From IMG/VR virus record IMGVR_UViG_3300025711_000251, positions 1 to 54,457 of that record: a stretch of DNA of 54,457 bases; one strand, 5' to 3'. The notes beneath the pieces were generated by a model. That model made no database searches, had not been told where the DNA came from, and saw only the letters and a program-made list of their open reading frames with translations. Each line of letters starts with the position of its first letter. Positions within the stretch are counted from its first letter, which is position 1. This document shows, piece by piece, positions 24,992-54,457 of the stretch. The position numbers were made by a program, and so were the translations under genes. This DNA comes from a virus.

Positions 24992-26316
24992 CAGGCCAAT
25001 CCTCCAATACGGCGCGCGCCGGCAGTTTGAGACTTGATCGGGTAGCGCTTGGCAATGAAGTAGCCAGCAGCATCGTTCATGTGGTCGTGGCCCTTTTTCG
25101 GGTCCTTGTCAGGCTCGCCCTTGTCCGTGTAGGTCTGGCGCTCCAAGCAGAGCGTGAGCTGCGGACACTGGTCGATGTTGACCTTCAGGCGGCGCTCGCC
25201 GTAGCTGTTTAGCAGGATGGCGTTGAGGGCGTTCACGCGGTCTTTGACGCTGGGGTTCATCGAGTCGACCACCACCGTGAAACCCGCCTTCTTGAGCAAG
25301 GACAGGTCCGATTCACTTGCGTTCTTGCTGCTGGTGTTCTGGCCGCTGGCATCCGGGTAGACCGCGACGGTGTGGCCAGGGAAGCGAGCCTTGATCTTCT
25401 CGATCATCTCCGGCGTGTCGCGCACGGCGTGGAACTCATCCAGAGCCATCGGCAGGTCGTCGCGCACCACGTAGACCACGGCGCTCATCTTCATGACGTT
25501 GAAGTCCATGCCAATGTGCAGCGCCTCGCCGGGCTTGATGCGCTCAGTGGTGCGGCACTCGTCGCGACTGAAGGTGTAGTAGACGACGCCCGCATAGTTC
25601 TCGAAGCTGGCCTCGTACTCCTGGCGGAACGTGCGCGGGTCCATCTTCCGGCGCGCCGCGTCCAGTTCCTCGGCGGGGACGTTGCCGCCGTCCAGCGAGG
25701 TGTAGAGCCAGCTCTTGTGGTCGGGCTCATGGCCTGGCCGGCCATCCTGAAACGTGTCGTAGCAATGGTTGAAGCCCTTCGGCGTGCCGATCCGCAGTGC
25801 GTGACCGCCTTTGCGCGTATCACCGCTAGGCAGCGTGTACTGGCAGGTCGAGAGCATCGGCCGCAGGACTTCCTCCCAGGCCTCCCACGGGCAGTCGGCC
25901 CATTCGTCCACCAGGACAAAGAACAGGCCGGAACCGCGCAGGTTGTCGTAGTTGTCGAGCCCCACCACTCGCATGACATGACCGGACTTCAGAGTGATTG
26001 AGCATTCCGTCTCGTTCGGCCGGGTCGCGCGCCAGGCTTCAGGGATCGCCTGCTTCAAGCGGCGCCAGAACACACGCTTGGCCTGCTTGAAGGTCGGCGC
26101 GCCGTACCAAATCTCATCCTCCACGCTTACGCCCCACTCCGCAGCCAACCTGGCCGCGCGGCGCATCTCTGCCTTGCCGAGAAAGGTCTTGCCGAACCGC
26201 CGGCCACACACGGCATCGCGAAATCGTGCCTCAGGCTGGAAGCCCCAAACGTAGATGTTCGCCTGCTTCGGCGTCAGCTTTACCGGGGGGTCATAGGTAC
26301 GGGGTAGACGGGACAT
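24991..26316 (-). CDS. terminase large subunit
   Basis: 441 residues from ATG 26316; an in-frame ATG at 26322 is also possible. The N-terminal ATPase has Walker A CGRRFGKT (residues 37-44) and Walker B FFVLVDEW. The C-terminal nuclease has acidic clusters HIGMDFNVMKMS, VYPDASGQNTSS and HDHMNDAAGY. It pumps and cuts concatemeric DNA at the portal. It overlaps the small subunit by 26 bases. Confidence 0.93.
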   Translation of the reverse strand: MSRLPRTYDPPVKLTPKQANIYVWGFQPEARFRDAVCGRRFGKTFLGKAEMRRAARLAAEWGVSVEDEIWYGAPTFKQAKRVFWRRLKQAIPEAWRATRPNETECSITLKSGHVMRVVGLDNYDNLRGSGLFFVLVDEWADCPWEAWEEVLRPMLSTCQYTLPSGDTRKGGHALRIGTPKGFNHCYDTFQDGRPGHEPDHKSWLYTSLDGGNVPAEELDAARRKMDPRTFRQEYEASFENYAGVVYYTFSRDECRTTERIKPGEALHIGMDFNVMKMSAVVYVVRDDLPMALDEFHAVRDTPEMIEKIKARFPGHTVAVYPDASGQNTSSKNASESDLSLLKKAGFTVVVDSMNPSVKDRVNALNAILLNSYGERRLKVNIDQCPQLTLCLERQTYTDKGEPDKDPKKGHDHMNDAAGYFIAKRYPIKSQTAGARRIGGLA

Positions 26317-26767
26317 TCTCATCAGGCTCCAGGGTGTACTCAGCGATCGCGTGCGGCTGATCAGCCTGGGAGCCAAGGGGCTTGTCGGGTTCAAGGCGGC
26401 GATTCACGTATACGTCGCCTACCTCTTTGGCTGCCTGCTCCAGCAATTGGGCAGTCAGCGCCATGTTCTTCATGTTCTCGGCCTTCTCGGCCATGCGTCC
26501 CAGCGTGCGAAGTCGGAACGCGCGATTGGCAATGGGGATATCAGCTGTCTCTTCACGAAAGCGCTTGCGCGCATCATGGAACAGCTCGACCCACTTCTTG
26601 CCCAGGCCCTGCCCGGCGAACTTCGTGGGATCGTGCGACTCGCACTGCTGGCGGCTGATTTCAATGCCGAACTCTGTCTTGACCGCGGCGACCACCTGGG
26701 AGGGCGTATCGAAGCAGGCCAGAGCCTGCACAATGAAGGCCTTTACCTCGCTTCGTAGCACTGCCAT
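26291..26767 (-). CDS. terminase small subunit (DUF2280)
   Basis: 158 residues from ATG 26767 (MAVLRSEVKAFIVQALACFDTPSQVVAAVKTEFGIEISRQQ), a DUF2280 N-terminal helix-turn-helix. The family sits next to large terminase genes in many Pseudomonas phages and is taken as the DNA-recognition subunit. GAGG precedes the start; a TTG start 18 bases upstream is less likely. Confidence 0.88.
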   Translation of the reverse strand: MAVLRSEVKAFIVQALACFDTPSQVVAAVKTEFGIEISRQQCESHDPTKFAGQGLGKKWVELFHDARKRFREETADIPIANRAFRLRTLGRMAEKAENMKNMALTAQLLEQAAKEVGDVYVNRRLEPDKPLGSQADQPHAIAEYTLEPDENVPSTPYL

Positions 26768-26800
26768 AGGGGCCTCATCCGTCAAAACCTGTCATGGGAA

Positions 26801-27424
26801 TCAGGCCGACTTGAGCAGACAGGTTCCGCAGGCCCTCGAAATGTTCAATTTGCCCACCTCGGCGGGTTGATTTGCGGCGTCGATCAAGGCTTGCACCTCC
26901 TCGCTCGCACCGTAGCGGCGGACGACACCGACGAACTCTTCCACGTCGTGTCCGCGCAGCTTCAGCTTTGGGCCGCCGTCCTGGGTAAAGGCCGGCGCGC
27001 CGTATCGGTCGGTGTCTTGGGCGATGTGATAAAGCTCATGCTCTACCAAGGCGCAGAACTCGGTATCGCTGCAGTAGGCGCAGTAGTCGGCGGCCAGCGT
27101 GATGATGAAGGCCGGCACCTCGCCAAACCAGTCACGCATCTGCTGCTCCATCCGCGCCTTCTGCCACCCCCCTGCTCGGAAGGCGACCTGTTCGGCTTGG
27201 CCCAACACCCGGCGGCCTGCCTTCTCGAAGCTGGAAGAGGCCCACATCACGCGGACATTGGCGTCGAGCAGATGGGCGTGGTCGGGGTTGTGGATCTCCC
27301 CGTCTTCAGCGAGCACATGGATTCCAACCCATTCCCACACTTCTGGCGCGGGAGCAAGCCGGATGCCTATGTCCGCTAGGTCAGATAGCTCGGTCGCTTC
27401 CTTGGGCGGATATGGCCTGTTCAC
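26801..27424 (-). CDS. putative phage metallopeptidase
   Basis: 207 residues with zinc-protease motif HExxH (HELYH, residues 129-133) in VEHELYHIAQDTDRYGAP. The N-terminal part carries VRVMWASSSFEKAGRRVLGQ and FIITLAADYCAYCSD. This is the putative-metallopeptidase family seen beside terminase genes in Pseudomonas prophages. Its substrate is unknown; virion maturation or host-protein cleavage are both possible. It overlaps its upstream neighbour by 4 bases. Confidence 0.8.
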   Translation of the reverse strand: MNRPYPPKEATELSDLADIGIRLAPAPEVWEWVGIHVLAEDGEIHNPDHAHLLDANVRVMWASSSFEKAGRRVLGQAEQVAFRAGGWQKARMEQQMRDWFGEVPAFIITLAADYCAYCSDTEFCALVEHELYHIAQDTDRYGAPAFTQDGGPKLKLRGHDVEEFVGVVRRYGASEEVQALIDAANQPAEVGKLNISRACGTCLLKSA

Positions 27425-27612
27425 TTCACCACCATCTTGTGCGTCTCAGCATGGGCATGGCCGTGGAGGATGCCAACCACCAGGCCCTGGGGTATGCCGG
27501 CAGCCTTGGCAGCGTCGATGGCATTGGCGATTGCGCTATCTAGGCCTTTTACTGCGGCTGCGACCTCTGGGCCGAGCGGCAATGCATGATGCAGGCGGGT
27601 CACATCACCCAT
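27421..27612 (-). CDS. hypothetical protein, 63 aa, next to Acb2-like gene
   Basis: 63 residues from ATG 27612 (MGDVTRLHHALPLGPEVAAAVKGLDSAI), with TGAGG before it. One long amphipathic helix, then IPQGLVVGILHGHAHAETHKMVVK with a histidine-rich end. It lies between the metallopeptidase and the Acb2-like gene, overlapping the former by 4 bases. No function is known. Confidence 0.65.
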   Translation of the reverse strand: MGDVTRLHHALPLGPEVAAAVKGLDSAIANAIDAAKAAGIPQGLVVGILHGHAHAETHKMVVK

Positions 27613-27620
27613 AGCGCACC

Positions 27621-27851
27621 TCAGCTGAAAGGGTCGGCTGGCTTGGCGATCGAGCGCACAAACCACATGAAGCCCTGCTGCAGATTAGTCTTGGCCAGGG
27701 CCAACAGGCGCTGGTCAACGCCCTCAATCTGACCGATCTGCTTGAAAAGCTCGCCCGCATCAGCCTCAAGGGCCTTGATCGAGTTCATGCCGTCGATCTC
27801 GGACTGGGTCAGGTCGCGGTAACCGGTGATCTTCTTGTGCTGATTGTCCAT
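27621..27851 (-). CDS. acb2: Acb2/Tad1-type anti-CBASS cyclic-nucleotide sponge
   Basis: 76 residues: KKITGYRDLTQSEIDGMNSIKALEADAGELFKQIGQ..., with a C-terminal VDQRLLALAKTNLQQGFMWFVRSIAKP. This is the two-helix hairpin pattern of Acb2 proteins, which form hexamers that bind 3',3'-cGAMP and related signals and so stop CBASS abortive infection. Tyr11 and Lys26 fall at exactly the positions reported as essential for cGAMP binding in phage PaMx33 Acb2. It sits in the late operon between lysis and terminase genes. GAGG lies 8 bases before the ATG. The identification is from memory of the family, not from a search. Confidence 0.78.
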   Translation of the reverse strand: MDNQHKKITGYRDLTQSEIDGMNSIKALEADAGELFKQIGQIEGVDQRLLALAKTNLQQGFMWFVRSIAKPADPFS

Positions 27852-28034: not shown

Positions 28035-28241
28035 TCAGACGGCCTTCTGCACCAGGGCGATCAGGTGGTCCCACTCAGCTTCCACGTCGTGGCCCAGGGC
28101 AACCAGCAGCGCCTTCAGCTTGTCGGTGTCGGTGGTAGTGGCAGGTGCGGTGGTGACTTCAGGGGTTGGATCAGCCATGACTGGCTCCTTCTTGGTAGTG
28201 AGCCCGGAGAACCAGGCACGGATAGATTTCAGGATGTTCAT
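28035..28241 (-). CDS. small lysis-region protein, 68 aa
   Basis: 68 residues from ATG 28241 (MNILKSIRAWFSGLTTKKEPVMADP). A short amphipathic N-terminal helix, a threonine/proline linker, then a helix LKALLVALGHDVEAEWDHLIALVQKA. Its start overlaps the stop of the previous membrane-protein gene (4 bases). It may be membrane-associated and part of the lysis cassette. Confidence 0.65.
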   Translation of the reverse strand: MNILKSIRAWFSGLTTKKEPVMADPTPEVTTAPATTTDTDKLKALLVALGHDVEAEWDHLIALVQKAV

Positions 28242-28525
28242 CGTGTGCTCGCCTTGCGCCGCTCTTGACCGCGCCATACGAAAATGTGATGCCGACGGGC
28301 CCAGGCGTACATGACGATGCCGGCATGCAGCGACACCTCGGCAGGGTGCGAGACGTGGCCGCGCAGCTGGGCAGCCAGCAATGCGAAGGCGCTCACTGCC
28401 ACCAGGTAGAACGACACGGCCAGCAGGGGCTGTTCGAATGGATGCACCCGACGCAGATAATCCATGGCGGCCAGGATGACCAGGCTGCAAAGGACGGCGT
28501 CGACAGCGCTCAAGATGGTGTTCAT
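28238..28525 (-). CDS. membrane protein, putative second holin
   Basis: 95 residues with three hydrophobic stretches (AVDAVLCSLVILAAMDYL, LLAVSFYLVAVSAFALLAA, and VSLHAGIVMYAWA) and a strongly basic C-terminus (RRHHIFVWRGQERRKASTR). This layout fits class I holins. It overlaps the preceding holin-like gene by 4 bases, so the two may act as holin and antiholin or pinholin partner. Confidence 0.7.
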   Translation of the reverse strand: MNTILSAVDAVLCSLVILAAMDYLRRVHPFEQPLLAVSFYLVAVSAFALLAAQLRGHVSHPAEVSLHAGIVMYAWARRHHIFVWRGQERRKASTR

Positions 28526-28836
28526 GGTCCGGCACCTCTGAAAGGCCCGATCTGCCCAGCAAGTGCCTTGAGGCCGGGGATGATGTTCATCGCCAGCAGG
28601 CCGATCAGGAAGGCCACCCCATTTTGTGAGTCTGCATCAGTCGGCAGCTTGAAGTATGCAACGACGAGCTGGGTGGTGAAGATCGCGGACACGAAGCCCG
28701 TCACCACCGCCGCGGCTGCCTGCTTACGAGTCAGTCCACGGAGAAACGTGAGAGATAGGACAGCGCCGGCGAATCCGGCCAGCGCAACACCGTACTTCGC
28801 CAACAGTGCTCCTGTGGCAGTAGTGGCTGGCTCCAT
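28522..28836 (-). CDS. holin
   Basis: 104 residues from ATG 28836 (MEPATTATGALLAKYG), with GGAG 7 bases upstream. Three membrane segments (VALAGFAGAVLSLTFL, AAAVVTGFVSAIFTTQLVVAY, GVAFLIGLLAMNIIPGL) separated by short basic loops are typical of a small class I holin, which makes inner-membrane holes to release the endolysin. It is first in the lysis-gene group, just downstream of the tRNA gene. Confidence 0.78.
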   Translation of the reverse strand: MEPATTATGALLAKYGVALAGFAGAVLSLTFLRGLTRKQAAAAVVTGFVSAIFTTQLVVAYFKLPTDADSQNGVAFLIGLLAMNIIPGLKALAGQIGPFRGAGP

Positions 28837-28881
28837 TGGAAACTCCGGAATGCAATAGGCCCTAGACAGGGCTCTAAAATA

Positions 28882-28957
28882 TGGTTGCGAGGGGTGGATT
28901 CGAACCACCGACCTGCGGGTTATGAGCCCACCGAGCTGACCGCTGCTCTACCACGCA
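28882..28957 (-). tRNA. phage tRNA-Met(CAU) with initiator features
   Basis: A full 76-base cloverleaf with encoded CCA: acceptor TGCGTGG / CCTCGCA (one T-T mismatch at 5-68), D stem GAGC/GCTC, anticodon stem GTGGG/CCCGC, anticodon loop CTCATAA, T arm GGTGG-TTCGAAT-CCACC. Three initiator hallmarks are visible: G-C pairs 29-41, 30-40 and 31-39; A11-U24 in the D stem; and a weak U1-A72 end pair instead of G-C. It lies in the late operon between the bacteriocin immunity gene and the holin. Confidence 0.88.
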
Positions 28958-30837: not shown

Positions 30838-31440
30838 CTACGCCGCATCCTTCATCTCGTAAATTACTGCTGCCACCGGGCTCAATGCCATCCGATCCAG
30901 GTCCTCGCAGCACTCGAAAGCGCGCTGCACAAACGGCTCCCAGTCGCGAGCCCAGGCGCATGACTCCAGGCGGCAACCCATCTCGGCGTACAGCCAGGCC
31001 CGAAACTTTTCCGGGCTGGCCAGCGGGTCAGCGTTGGCCGACTGCCCGCCTTGGTGCATGTACTGGTACCGGCGCATCACACCCTTCACCACGTACTCCA
31101 ACTTCTCGCGCTTGGCTGCGGTCATGCGCGGGGACCTGGCCACCACCAGATTGAAGACGACCTCCTCCGCTGCCTCTCGGATATCGTCAGCGCGGCGGCG
31201 GTCGGGACGTGGGGCGTACATGAAATCGCCGAAGACGCGCACCTCTGGGGTGAGCTTGGCGATCGCCGACTGAATCCAGCCAGCCACGGTGCCGTGGGCG
31301 GCAGAATTGGCAGTCACGCCGCGATCCGTGGTCTGAACCGCGGTGCCCAGCAGGCACTGCTGTTCTAGCCCAGAAAGCCCGCCACGGGTTTCAGTGTAGG
31401 TGCAGTCGTGCCAGGCCAACCGCGCGGAATTGATCTTCAT
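30838..31440 (-). CDS. Q-like late antiterminator (by position)
   Basis: 200 residues (MKINSARLAWHDCTYTETRGGLSGLEQQCLLGTAVQTTD...). Basic helical middle (ADDIREAAEEVVFNLVVARSPRMTAAKREKLEYVVKGVMRRYQYM) suitable for DNA or RNA polymerase binding. It is last in the early operon after NinB and NinG, its ATG overlaps the NinG stop, and a promoter-plus-terminator unit follows, exactly the place of lambda Q. I do not see a diagnostic antiterminator motif, so the role is inferred from context. Confidence 0.65.
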   Translation of the reverse strand: MKINSARLAWHDCTYTETRGGLSGLEQQCLLGTAVQTTDRGVTANSAAHGTVAGWIQSAIAKLTPEVRVFGDFMYAPRPDRRRADDIREAAEEVVFNLVVARSPRMTAAKREKLEYVVKGVMRRYQYMHQGGQSANADPLASPEKFRAWLYAEMGCRLESCAWARDWEPFVQRAFECCEDLDRMALSPVAAVIYEMKDAA

Positions 31441-32015
31441 GCTGCTTCCCCCTTCAACGCGCGAATCTTCGCGCGGTACTCGGCCTTGATCGCCTTCAAG
31501 TCTTCAATGGTGTAACGCTTGGGCTCGTGCGGCCCTTCCAGCCACTCAACCTTGGCAGCGCCGATGCGGGCCACCAGAGTGATGCGGTAGTTCACGATGT
31601 CGCCGGATTTGTGGTTGTTGCATGGCGCACATTGCTTGTGGACGTTCAGGGGCTCAAAGCGCAACTCTGGGTTGGCGCCCACCGTGCGGTAGTGGCCAGC
31701 GTGATATTGGCCTTCGTGGTGCCGGCCGCAGCTCACGCATGGCAGGGTGGCGTCACGCAGCCTGATCCACTCGTTGAACACGATCTGAGCTTCACGCATG
31801 TGGTCGGCGCGCGTCTTGACCCGCTCCTTCGCCGCACGCAGTTCCTTGCGCCCGATCGCGGCCAGCGACTTGCGCGCCCTTTCCTGGTTCACGTCCTTGA
31901 TGGCCAGACCACAGGCTGGGCTGCACACCTTTTGGCCCAGACGCTGCGGGATGAACTTGGCAGCGCAGGCAGCATTGAGGCACTTCTTGGCCTTTGGCGG
32001 TTTAGCTGCGATCAC
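31437..32015 (-). CDS. ninG: recombination protein NinG (Rap)
   Basis: 192 residues from GTG 32015, which overlaps the NinB stop (GTGA). N-terminal zinc cluster KCLNAACAAKF ... KVCSPACG, a lysine/arginine-rich middle, and the C-terminal HNH-like block CVSCGRHHEGQYHAGHYRT ... FEPLNVHKQCAPCNNHKSG. Lambda Rap/NinG is a Holliday-junction and D-loop nuclease that helps Red recombination. Confidence 0.92.
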   Translation of the reverse strand: MIAAKPPKAKKCLNAACAAKFIPQRLGQKVCSPACGLAIKDVNQERARKSLAAIGRKELRAAKERVKTRADHMREAQIVFNEWIRLRDATLPCVSCGRHHEGQYHAGHYRTVGANPELRFEPLNVHKQCAPCNNHKSGDIVNYRITLVARIGAAKVEWLEGPHEPKRYTIEDLKAIKAEYRAKIRALKGEAA

Positions 32016-32431
32016 GAATACCGCCCTCCCCAGTGATCCTTGGCTGTCCAGCGCACCTGGTGCTCGCCACCGAATGCCTCGATCCAGTCCAGCAGCTCGG
32101 CGCACTGCTTCACGCTCAATTTGCTTGTGCGCTCGTACACAACGTCGAAGCCATGCCCATCGAGCGCCGGTATCATCTGCGGGCGCTCGCCGGCCTCACG
32201 CAGCCATGCAGCCGTCAGCAGCCGCTTCCAGATCAGGACGCCCCACTTCTTGCCGGCGTGCTCGACCTGGTTGGCGATATCGGTCAGCCTGGCGTGAAGC
32301 AGCTTGTTCTGCTCCCCGCTGCGGTCCAGGTCCTGGATGATGATCTTCTTGGGCTTCGAGAAGTCCGTGCCGTCTAGGAAGCCGTTCAGCCGGCTTGTGT
32401 CTTCACGGCTGCGCATCACGATTTCAGCCAT
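32012..32431 (-). CDS. ninB: recombination protein NinB (Orf)
   Basis: 139 residues with the NinB pattern: KPKKIIIQDLDRSGEQNKLLHARLTDIANQVEHAGKKW, WKRLLTAAWLREAGE, DVVYERTSKLSVKQCAELLDWIEAFG. Lambda NinB (Orf) binds single-stranded DNA and SSB and replaces RecFOR. It lies directly upstream of NinG, as in lambda ninR. Confidence 0.92.
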   Translation of the reverse strand: MAEIVMRSREDTSRLNGFLDGTDFSKPKKIIIQDLDRSGEQNKLLHARLTDIANQVEHAGKKWGVLIWKRLLTAAWLREAGERPQMIPALDGHGFDVVYERTSKLSVKQCAELLDWIEAFGGEHQVRWTAKDHWGGRYS

Positions 32432-36551: not shown

Positions 36552-36592
36552 GGAAATAATTTAGCTATGGGCACATTTAGCAAACAGCTAAA
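36525..36592. promoter_or_regulatory. operator cluster between cro and repressor
   Basis: Three sites of type TTTAGC-N5-GCTAAA: 36525-36541 (good), 36560-36576 (right half poor) and 36576-36592 (perfect). The first covers the leftward -10. The last two surround the repressor start codon at 36567. The same motif recurs at 39231-39272. Confidence 0.75.
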
Positions 36593-37463
36593 CGCTGGCA
36601 TGCTTGCGCGCATGGATATTTACGCGATTCGAAAACAGAACCTGGTCAAGCTGATTGGCAACCAGAGGAAGGGAGCCTGCGCCGAGCGCTGGGGGATGGC
36701 CCCTGCACACTTGAGCCAGATCCTTTCCGAAAAGACGGCTAAGAACTTGGGCGACGATGTGGCGCGCCGGATTGAAAGCGTGGAAGGTTTGCCACGGGGT
36801 TGGTTTGACGCACTTGTATACGACGAAATCGTGAGCGCCCCTGCAATAGTTGAAGAGCAAGGACCAATCTATGGGAAGGAAGACAGCTCTCTATCAGCTG
36901 CGGATATGGTAAAGCAGATGCTGGCCAAGCAAGGCAAAGGGCTGTCAGCCGAAGCGCGTGCCCGCCTGCTCGCGGCAGCCGACGAGCCAGGGGAAAGCAA
37001 CGTGATCGCGGTCGAATTCTCCCGCCCCGGCCAGGTCGGGGACGAGGTGTGGATTGCTCACTACGACGTCCGGGCGGCGATGGGTGGCGGCCAGGTGGCC
37101 CACGACTACCCGGAAATGCTCCAGGACGTGCGGGTGAGCCCGAAGCACCTGCGCGAGATGGGTGTCGAGTTCAAGGAACACTTCCACCTCAAGCTGGTCA
37201 CCGGCTGGGGCCAGTCGATGGCGCCCACGATCAAGCACCGCGATCCGTTGCTGGTCGACGTGAGTATCCGGGAATTCATCGGGGATGGGATTTACCTGTT
37301 TTCCCACGAGGACCTGCTGTACATCAAGCGCCTACAGAAGAAGGGCAAGGATCATTTCAAGATGATCTCGGACAACACGAACCATCCGCCTGAGGACATT
37401 CGAGTGGATGACACCTTCATTCAAGCTAAGGTGCTACTGGTGTGGAATGCGCACCTTGCCTGA
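36567..37463 (+). CDS. cI: CI-like prophage repressor with S24 peptidase domain
   Basis: 298 residues as given. N-terminal helix-turn-helix (about 18-75: IYAIRKQNLVKLIGNQRKGACAERWGMAPAHLSQILS). C-terminal LexA/CI-type S24 domain with nucleophile Ser217 (GWGQSMAPTI) and Lys254 (LLYIKRLQKKG). No Ala-Gly or Cys-Gly cleavage pair is obvious in the hinge (YDVRAAMGGGQV), so self-cleavage is not certain. The perfect operator at 36576-36592 lies inside the 5' coding end; a start at ATG 36612 (MDIYAIRK) would avoid this. The rightward -10-like AATAAT (36555-36560) would make the ATG at 36567 nearly leaderless, as for lambda cI. Confidence 0.88.
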   Translation: MGTFSKQLNAGMLARMDIYAIRKQNLVKLIGNQRKGACAERWGMAPAHLSQILSEKTAKNLGDDVARRIESVEGLPRGWFDALVYDEIVSAPAIVEEQGPIYGKEDSSLSAADMVKQMLAKQGKGLSAEARARLLAAADEPGESNVIAVEFSRPGQVGDEVWIAHYDVRAAMGGGQVAHDYPEMLQDVRVSPKHLREMGVEFKEHFHLKLVTGWGQSMAPTIKHRDPLLVDVSIREFIGDGIYLFSHEDLLYIKRLQKKGKDHFKMISDNTNHPPEDIRVDDTFIQAKVLLVWNAHLA

Positions 37464-49421: not shown

Positions 49422-50345
49422 ATGACCACAGCAATCGATTTGTTCGCCGGCCTTGGCGGATGGTCCACCGGTGCCCGCGCGGCGGGTGTGGACGTCCTCT
49501 GGGCTGCCAACCACTGGCCCGAGGCCGTAAAGTGGCACGCGGCCAACCATCCCACCACCGACCACGTGTGCCAGGATTTGCACCAGGCGCGCTGGGAGCA
49601 GGTACCGGCCCATGACCTGTTGCTGGCCTCGCCATGCTGCCAGGGCCACTCGAAGGCGCGTGGGAAGGCCTCGGGCAACCCGCAGCATGACTCCTCCCGC
49701 TCCACCGCCTGGGCAGTCGTATCGGCCCTTGAGTATCACCGCCCCGAAGGCGGCGTGGTAGAGAACGTGCCGGAATTCATGGACTGGGCGCTGTACCCGG
49801 CCTGGCTACAAGCGGTCCAGGCGCTGGGCTACCAGGTCGCTCCGCACATCGTCGACTGCGCGGACCTGGGCGTGCCTCAGCACCGGGTGCGCCTGTTCCT
49901 GGTGCTGACCCGCAGCCGTGCACCGCTGATGCTGGAGCTGCACAAGCGCCAGCACGTGCCGGCCGCCAGCTTCCTGGACTTCAGCGCCGGCAAGTGGTCG
50001 CCCATCGTGAAGCCTGGGCGGGCTGCCGCGACCCTCACCCGGGTGGCCAACGGCCGGGCCAGATTCGGTGACCAGTTCATCATGCCCTACTACGGCAAAG
50101 GCTCAGGGCTGACTGGGCGCGACATGGCTAGGCCGATCGGCACCATCACCACCCTGGACCGCTGGGCCTTGGTGCGCGGTGACGAGATGCGGATGCTCAG
50201 CGCCAACGAGGCACTGGCCGCCCAGAGCTTCCCGTCGGACACCCTGCGGCCGGACAACCACCGGCTGACCATGCACATGGCCGGCAATGCGGTTCCGCCG
50301 CTTGCCGGCCAGCGCATCCTCGAAGCGATGATGGCCGCCGCGTAG
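49422..50345 (+). CDS. C5 cytosine-specific DNA methyltransferase
   Basis: 307 residues. Motif I DLFAGLGGWS (6-15), motif IV SPCCQGHS with catalytic Cys73, motif VI VVENVPEF (Glu110), motif VIII PQHRVRLF and motif X GNAVPPLAG. The usual P-P-C-Q is P-C-C-Q here, as in some other phage enzymes. It is a stand-alone enzyme with no restriction partner in sight, so protection of phage DNA from host restriction is likely. Target sequence unknown. Confidence 0.93.
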   Translation: MTTAIDLFAGLGGWSTGARAAGVDVLWAANHWPEAVKWHAANHPTTDHVCQDLHQARWEQVPAHDLLLASPCCQGHSKARGKASGNPQHDSSRSTAWAVVSALEYHRPEGGVVENVPEFMDWALYPAWLQAVQALGYQVAPHIVDCADLGVPQHRVRLFLVLTRSRAPLMLELHKRQHVPAASFLDFSAGKWSPIVKPGRAAATLTRVANGRARFGDQFIMPYYGKGSGLTGRDMARPIGTITTLDRWALVRGDEMRMLSANEALAAQSFPSDTLRPDNHRLTMHMAGNAVPPLAGQRILEAMMAAA

Positions 50346-53132: not shown

Positions 53133-53345
53133 ATGAAGCGAGAACTGATCAAGATCAGCGAGTTCCGCCGGCGGCGCTGGGGCCCAAATGGCACCCCGCA
53201 GTGCTCGCAAGCCATCCGCAACCACATCCGTAACGGCCTGATCCCAGGCGAACAAATCGGCAAGCTCTGGTACGTTGACTGGGCGGCCTTCACGAAAGCT
53301 GACGGTAACGACCTGGTCGCGATGGTATTGAAAGGAGCCGCGTAA
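53133..53345 (+). CDS. xis: excisionase-like small DNA-binding protein
   Basis: 70 residues (MKRELIKISEFRRRRWGPNGTPQCSQAIRNHIRNGLIPGEQIGKLWYVDWAAFT). A winged-helix of the MerR/excisionase type: basic helix (PQCSQAIRNHIRNGLIPG) then strands (EQIGKLWYVDW). It lies immediately upstream of the integrase and its stop overlaps the integrase start (TAATG). It would bend DNA at the attachment site and favour excision. Confidence 0.82.
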   Translation: MKRELIKISEFRRRRWGPNGTPQCSQAIRNHIRNGLIPGEQIGKLWYVDWAAFTKADGNDLVAMVLKGAA

Positions 53346-54457
53346 TGGCGCCGCGCCCACGCAACAAATCAAACCGGGGTCTTCCCCAGAACCTGTACGT
53401 CGATGAGCGCCGCGGCACCTTCCGTTACCGGCGCCCTACCGATGGAAAGTGGTTTCAGTTCGGCGCTGACCGGCTCAAAGCTATCGACGCCGCGAAGCAA
53501 CTGAACCTGGCGTTCCTCAAAGGTGCCGACCTGGTCGGTGCCGTGCTGGGCGAAACCTCCGACCTGTTCACAGCCTTTCTGGACCTTTACGAATCCAAGA
53601 TCCTGCCCGAGCGGGAGCTGGCAAAAGGAACCTTGGGGCTGTACGCCGTGCACTTCCGGCGCTTCCGCAAGGCCTTCGAGGGCAAGGCCGTTGACCAGAT
53701 CACCATTCGGATGATTGCGGAGATGCTGGACGCACTGACGCCGCGCACGGCAAACCAATGCCGGGCGCTGCTGATCGACATCTTCAACCACGCGGCATCA
53801 AAGGGTCTGTGCCCGGACAACCCCGCGGCGAGCACCATCAACCGAATTGAGAAGAAGCAGCGCAAGCGCCACACCGAGGAAGGGTTGAAGGCCATCAGGG
53901 CGAAAGCGCCAGCATGGCTCAAAAACGCCATCGACCTGGCGCTGATCACCGCCCAGCGGCGGACAGATATTCTAGATATGAAGTTTGAGGATGTGCGGGA
54001 CGGGTTCTTGTATGTCGTCCAGCAGAAGACGGCCAAAGCCAGCGATGCAGCCTGGATTCGGTTCCGGGTGACACCCGAGCTGCAGGCTGTGATCAGCCGT
54101 TGCCGGGACAACGTGGCATCGCCCTACCTGGTGCACCGCCGGCCGGATCGCCTGAAACAGAAGCAGGCGCAGACGAAAGAGCACTGGACCAAGATCGAGG
54201 AGCGATATTTGACGCGGGCATTTAAGGCTGCCCGGGAGGATGCGGGATGTTACTCGGACTGGTCCGACGAGGAGATGCCTGGCTTCCACGAAGTGCGGGC
54301 GCTGTCCCTTCACCTGTACAAAAAAGCGGGCAAGGATGGCCAGAAGATCGCCGGCCACGCCAGCGAGGAGATGACAAAAAACTACCAGCGAGACCACGCC
54401 GAGGTGGTCTGGTCCGACGCTATTCCAGACCTCGATATCAGCGAATTCGCGGGTTAG
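53345..54457 (+). CDS. int: tyrosine integrase
   Basis: 370 residues. N-terminal arm-binding domain (NLYVDERRGTFRYRRPTDGKWFQFG, 16-40), core-binding domain (about 72-165) and catalytic domain with Arg206 (TAQRRTDI; Arg205 adjacent), Lys228 (QQKTAK), His315-x-x-Arg318 (HEVR), His338 (AGHAS) and nucleophile Tyr347 (KNYQRD). All catalytic residues are present, so it should be active. It points towards the expected intact tRNA-Pro gene, and its stop is the last codon of the window. Confidence 0.95.
   Translation: MAPRPRNKSNRGLPQNLYVDERRGTFRYRRPTDGKWFQFGADRLKAIDAAKQLNLAFLKGADLVGAVLGETSDLFTAFLDLYESKILPERELAKGTLGLYAVHFRRFRKAFEGKAVDQITIRMIAEMLDALTPRTANQCRALLIDIFNHAASKGLCPDNPAASTINRIEKKQRKRHTEEGLKAIRAKAPAWLKNAIDLALITAQRRTDILDMKFEDVRDGFLYVVQQKTAKASDAAWIRFRVTPELQAVISRCRDNVASPYLVHRRPDRLKQKQAQTKEHWTKIEERYLTRAFKAAREDAGCYSDWSDEEMPGFHEVRALSLHLYKKAGKDGQKIAGHASEEMTKNYQRDHAEVVWSDAIPDLDISEFAG

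Follow-up and report, generated by a model that had tools for sequence, protein, structure and literature searches.

The stretch of viral DNA analysed here (54,457 bases, referred to below as the window) contains an acb2-like open reading frame on the minus strand that starts at 27851, ends at 27621 and consists of 76 codons plus a stop codon. A 76-residue protein had been assigned to exactly these positions in a preliminary description, which did not give the strand. The sequence upstream of the ORF ends in ...GCAGAGAGGCAGCCTC-ATG, and a purine-rich, Shine-Dalgarno-like AGAGG lies a few bases 5' of the ATG. The gene and its surroundings are arranged as follows.

31437-32105, minus strand (the strand of acb2): NinG-like gene
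30838-31440, minus strand: gene for a phrog_3373 protein
28522-28908, minus strand: holin gene
28238-28525, minus strand: gene for a phrog_13520 protein
27621-27851, minus strand: acb2-like gene, 76 residues, recognised from the ORF, the Pfam PF24729 match, the PDB Acb2 and Vs.4 matches and the AlphaFold2 model
27421-27612, minus strand: gene for a 63-residue protein (phrog_15190, function unknown), its ORF starting 8 nt past the acb2 stop codon
26801-27424, minus strand: gene for a phrog_513 protein (labelled transposase in PHROGs)
26291-26785, minus strand: phrog_546 gene, in the place of the small terminase
beyond phrog_546 in the gene order, minus strand: large terminase gene
36567-37463: gene for a CI-like repressor
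53345-54457 (window end): tyrosine integrase gene

The window also encodes a major head protein, a tape measure protein and a lambda J-like tail protein. Because these genes are found together with those for a CI-like repressor and an integrase, the phage looks like a lambda-like temperate siphophage. The earlier proposal of a temperate phage thus agrees with the repressor and integrase genes, and that of a late operon fits the position of acb2 between the holin and terminase genes. Elsewhere, a DNA methyltransferase gene (49422-50345, plus strand; phrog_116, E 1.4e-73) may provide a guard against restriction. A tRNA-Met gene (28882-28957, minus strand) lies just upstream of the holin gene, and seven of the 60 related loci scanned (L007, L015, L046, L054, L060, L075 and L078) contain one to four tRNA genes about 0.8-1.5 kb upstream of acb2. 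An ORF family is found at this tRNA region in 52 of 80 loci; by its pattern it may represent a translated tRNA half.

The 76-residue protein belongs to the Acb2/Tad1 hairpin family. A search with the Pfam model of this family (PF24729), which the preliminary description had suggested, gave a match of 70.5 bits over residues 10-70, covering the whole 58-position model and well over the cut-off of 27 bits. A phmmer search of PDB sequences identified the solved PaP2 p26/Acb2 (8h2j, E 4.3e-13) and T4 Vs.4 (7uq2, E 0.0011); 8h2j is given as Acb2 (p26) of phage PaP2 in an excerpt of PMC11722364. Relatives were found in 238 of the 50,697 records of a phage collection, PaMx33 among them, and 327 of 334 pattern-matched viral stretches from IMG/VR encode one. 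Four additional scans with other family members yielded a diverse homologue set in which 221 of 319 filtered ORFs are 72-78 residues long and 73 have at least 85 residues, a mix that depends on the queries chosen. The region 27624-27851 (minus strand) also matches phrog_717, a model of 289 positions, only by its C-terminal positions 199-287, a hint that some longer proteins may end in an Acb2 domain. Annotation of the family is uneven: in two deposited Pseudomonas aeruginosa phages (L084 and L085; BK061476 and PP003914) acb2 is unannotated beneath a long antisense ORF, labelled 'Rz-like spanin' in one of them, and acb2 homologues in other phages are labelled 'NAD/FAD-utilizing enzyme'.

The structure predicted with AlphaFold2 from a 126-sequence alignment (mean pLDDT 90.5, pTM 0.72) consists of a short N-terminal helix (residues 4-7) and two long antiparallel helices (16-40 and 47-69), with no strand. 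The layout of the Acb2 protomer described in an excerpt of PMC12043709 agrees with the modelled helices. When the model was compared with the PDB using Foldseek, the best eight rows were all Acb2 or Vs.4 chains (8h2j_A, E 7.5e-4, TMq 0.75) and the ninth was unrelated (E 2.6). VIA-align gave Z scores of 8.6 for 8h2j (2.1 A, 73 residues), 8.3 for 8h2x (1.9 A, 71 residues) and 8.3 for 7uq2 (2.5 A, 73 residues), the next match scoring 6.1. The predicted fold is that of the Acb2 helical hairpin, as the preliminary description had expected. As fold rank or Z score alone is weak evidence for short helical hairpins, the case for Acb2 is carried by the sequence and by the residues considered below.

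According to an excerpt of PMC10097602, Vs.4 contacts cGAMP through Y8, H11, K23, R79 and F82, with Y8 stacking on the ligand, and forms a hexamer with three cGAMP molecules and a Kd for cGAMP of about 30 nM. These five residues align to Y11, L14, K26, R66 and A69 of the 76-residue protein, so that the Tyr, Lys and Arg of the dinucleotide pocket are present and H11 and F82 are replaced by Leu14 and Ala69. PaP2 and PaMx33 Acb2 likewise have Leu and Ala at the H11 and F82 positions, yet PaP2 Acb2 was solved with cGAMP bound; hence these two residues are not family-defining. Conservation was assessed in an alignment of 126 sequences, i.e. the window protein and 125 representatives under 80% identity, which left out 12 of 138 representatives (long-tip, C-terminally extended and a few others). 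The codons concerned, placed by alignment, are listed with the number of homologues that share the residue.

27819-27821, minus strand: Tyr11 codon, aligned to Vs.4 Y8; Tyr in 125/126
27774-27776, minus strand: Lys26 codon, aligned to Vs.4 K23; Lys in 125/126
27708-27710, minus strand: Arg48 codon, aligned to PaMx33 R67; Arg in 121/126
27654-27656, minus strand: Arg66 codon, aligned to Vs.4 R79; Arg in 125/126

Asn23 is found in all 126 sequences. Tyr11 and Lys26, which we take to be key residues for cGAMP binding in PaMx33 Acb2, had been reported to fall at the same residue numbers here, and both residues do have those numbers in the PaMx33 protein and in the window protein. R67 of PaMx33 Acb2 presumably has a role in cyclic trinucleotide binding. 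Beside Arg48, 96 of the 126 homologues have a Trp at position 49, where the window protein has Leu.

Compared with 80 close loci, acb2 showed a median protein identity of 97.4%, with pS of 0.53, pN of 0.017 and pN/pS of 0.028; these loci are the most similar of the 327, a choice that lowers pN. The corresponding pN/pS ratios of the neighbours were 0.31 for the 63-residue gene (29 loci), 0.28 for phrog_513 (33 loci) and 0.26 for phrog_546 (24 loci), and the acb2 ratio was lower in every co-measured locus (29/29, 33/33 and 24/24, respectively). The same was true in 12 of 12 loci chosen by the 63-residue neighbour instead. Protein evolution of acb2 is thus about ten times slower than that of its neighbours in the same loci. 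This constraint may reflect a ligand that is unable to evolve away, together with a hexamer subunit of 76 residues most of which would be pocket or interface. A literature search on Acb2 and purifying selection returned, judged by title, only papers on plant or insect genes. As the ORF matches PF24729, has many relatives and shows far more synonymous than replacement change, it is not a chance reading frame. Family model, predicted fold and pocket residues all support the earlier assignment as an Acb2-type protein, and we consider it very probable that its product is a nucleotide sponge of the Acb2 type, probably hexameric, that would bind CBASS cyclic nucleotides as its studied relatives do.

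Close relatives of acb2 are found mostly in Pseudomonas. When 84,980 species genomes were scanned, 44 acb2 loci were identified; 33 of these were at least 88% identical to the window gene (two of them partial at contig ends), 32 titled Pseudomonas and one Pantoea. One contig of Pseudomonas sp. RIT623 carries two acb2 copies (L446 and L462; 97% and 91% identical to that of the window) about 7.2 kb apart. Of 298 Pseudomonas genomes, 26 had a match to the CBASS synthase family PF18144 that exceeded the cut-off; this family covers only part of the CBASS synthases, and the counts are lower bounds because one genome (G001) matched in one scan and not in another. There was no enrichment of PF18144 with acb2 (2/28 acb2-positive genomes, including weak partial matches, vs 24/270 acb2-negative; Fisher p 1.0), and a link between acb2 and host CBASS was rejected on these counts. 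Among genomes picked for a near-identical acb2, PF18144 was over cut-off in five of 26, vs 26 of 298 (p 0.09).

A few Pseudomonas prophages contain an acb2 that is near-intact except for a single in-frame stop, at codon 41 (L482), 37 (L463) or 58 (L466, which also has a small deletion). Stop-containing alleles were found at nine of 417 loci with a match, a figure that does not represent a rate because flagged stops were part of the reason for fetching L482-L488 and because L466 and L483 represent one gene. No stops interrupt the matches to the phrog_513, phrog_546 and terminase-like genes downstream in L463, or the match to phrog_513, the one gene matched, in L482. PaMx41 acb2 also has a stop at codon 37, according to an excerpt of PMC10419184, and such losses are suggested in part of PMC12657218 to come from Panoptes. 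Natural nonsense alleles beside intact neighbours provide material on when carriage of Acb2 is costly.

The preliminary description had suggested that the 63-residue neighbour may be an anti-defence partner of acb2. Of the 80 close loci, 33 have the neighbour downstream of acb2, with a 1-nt overlap in 30 of the 33, as might be expected of a two-gene anti-defence module. Among 81 loci collected for the neighbour itself (L357-L437; 80 from a scan plus Medea1), acb2 is present in only 12; the remaining 69 show none in the available sequence, which in 55 cases reaches upstream for at least 2,000 nt. Furthermore, no functional family matches the neighbour over cut-off, the Pfam model 'Phosphodiest' scoring 15.8 bits against a cut-off of 23. 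Given this occurrence mostly without acb2 and the lack of a functional family, the partner idea was rejected, and we regard a dedicated module as very improbable. At loci without acb2 the neighbour follows holin or spanin-like genes, labels assigned by sequence reading; only clear holin or spanin-like clusters were used, as the largest cluster of the upstream slot includes shadow ORFs. The neighbour, which in Pseudomonas phages often overlaps the preceding gene by 1 or 4 nt, therefore seems to be a general lysis-terminase junction gene, with acb2 as an apparently optional insert next to it.

Two other readings concern the ligand. The hairpins of Acb2 and of Tad1 both fall under PF24729, so that the protein could be a sponge of the Tad1 type, with the Thoeris signal gcADPR as its main ligand. 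In an excerpt of PMC12043709, Tad1 is described as an N-terminal antiparallel four-strand sheet followed by two helices. This sheet is missing from the AlphaFold2 model, in which the 76 residues form no strand, and both the sequence search and the fold comparison led to Acb2 and Vs.4; Tad1 identity was rejected on this architecture and has hardly any likelihood left. The protein could instead be a homologue of Acb2 with a lost or altered ligand range, e.g. one that binds cyclic dinucleotides only or is tuned away from Panoptes decoys. A shortened hairpin tip and Leu in place of the usual Trp beside Arg48 would be consistent with such a change, and it is argued in part of PMC12657218 that phages have to choose whether to retain Acb2 or give it up. 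Against it, none of Tyr11, Lys26, Arg48 and Arg66 has been lost, purifying selection on the clade is very strong, and the Panoptes mCpol family (PF18182) had no match in 21 acb2-bearing Pseudomonas genomes, including three with broken alleles (G041, G021 and G024), in a search in which one of 14 control genomes matched, below cut-off. We consider an altered range unlikely.

The reading that we favour, an Acb2-type sponge, suggests the following course of events. Six copies of the protein would probably assemble into a compact hexamer, with cyclic dinucleotides held in pockets between subunit pairs (Tyr11, Lys26 and Arg66) and cyclic trinucleotides probably bound at the three-fold axis (Arg48). 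In lytic growth or on induction, the cyclic nucleotides of a host CBASS enzyme would be bound but not cleaved by the Acb2-like protein, and effectors such as phospholipases or nucleases would stay off for as long as the phage needs to complete its cycle. From what is established for the studied relatives, we have high confidence that hexamer formation, ligand binding and protection from CBASS would apply to this protein. The low pN/pS (about 0.03 vs about 0.3) is the expectation for a tiny protein that has an unchanging small-molecule target and its faces taken up by pockets or hexamer contacts, in contrast to inhibitors that chase a changing protein.

The window protein is thus a well-supported new Acb2 from lambda-like temperate Pseudomonas phages, in a family that is already known. 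It shares with the Acb2 of PaP2 and PaMx33 (p26; PDB 8h2j, 8h2x and 8ixz) the N-terminus MDNQHKKIxGYRDL, Tyr11, Lys26, an Arg aligned to Arg48, the C-terminal RxIAxP segment and the fold, with 41.5% identity to PaMx33 Acb2 (about 41% over the whole length). The two solved proteins found are longer (93 and about 88 residues) than the short proteins of this clade. PaP2 Acb2 is the one with 93 residues; the 17-residue shortening to 76 is mostly in the hairpin tip, and Leu49 replaces a Trp of both PaP2 and PaMx33 Acb2. Gene position also differs, as the PaMx33 gene is located after replication genes and ahead of a convergent structural gene, whereas the gene described here lies between holin genes and terminase. 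T4 Vs.4 (7uq2) has the same fold, and its Tyr8, Lys23 and Arg79 are kept as Tyr11, Lys26 and Arg66, but its Phe82 and His11 are not kept and identity is only about 25% in the fold alignment. It is conceivable, though we give it little weight, that the 76-residue Pseudomonas clade is a compact, near-frozen Acb2 whose short tip and lack of the Trp produce a ligand range unlike that of PaMx33, and that the repeated loss by stop codons marks a cost, e.g. sensing by decoy-nucleotide defences.
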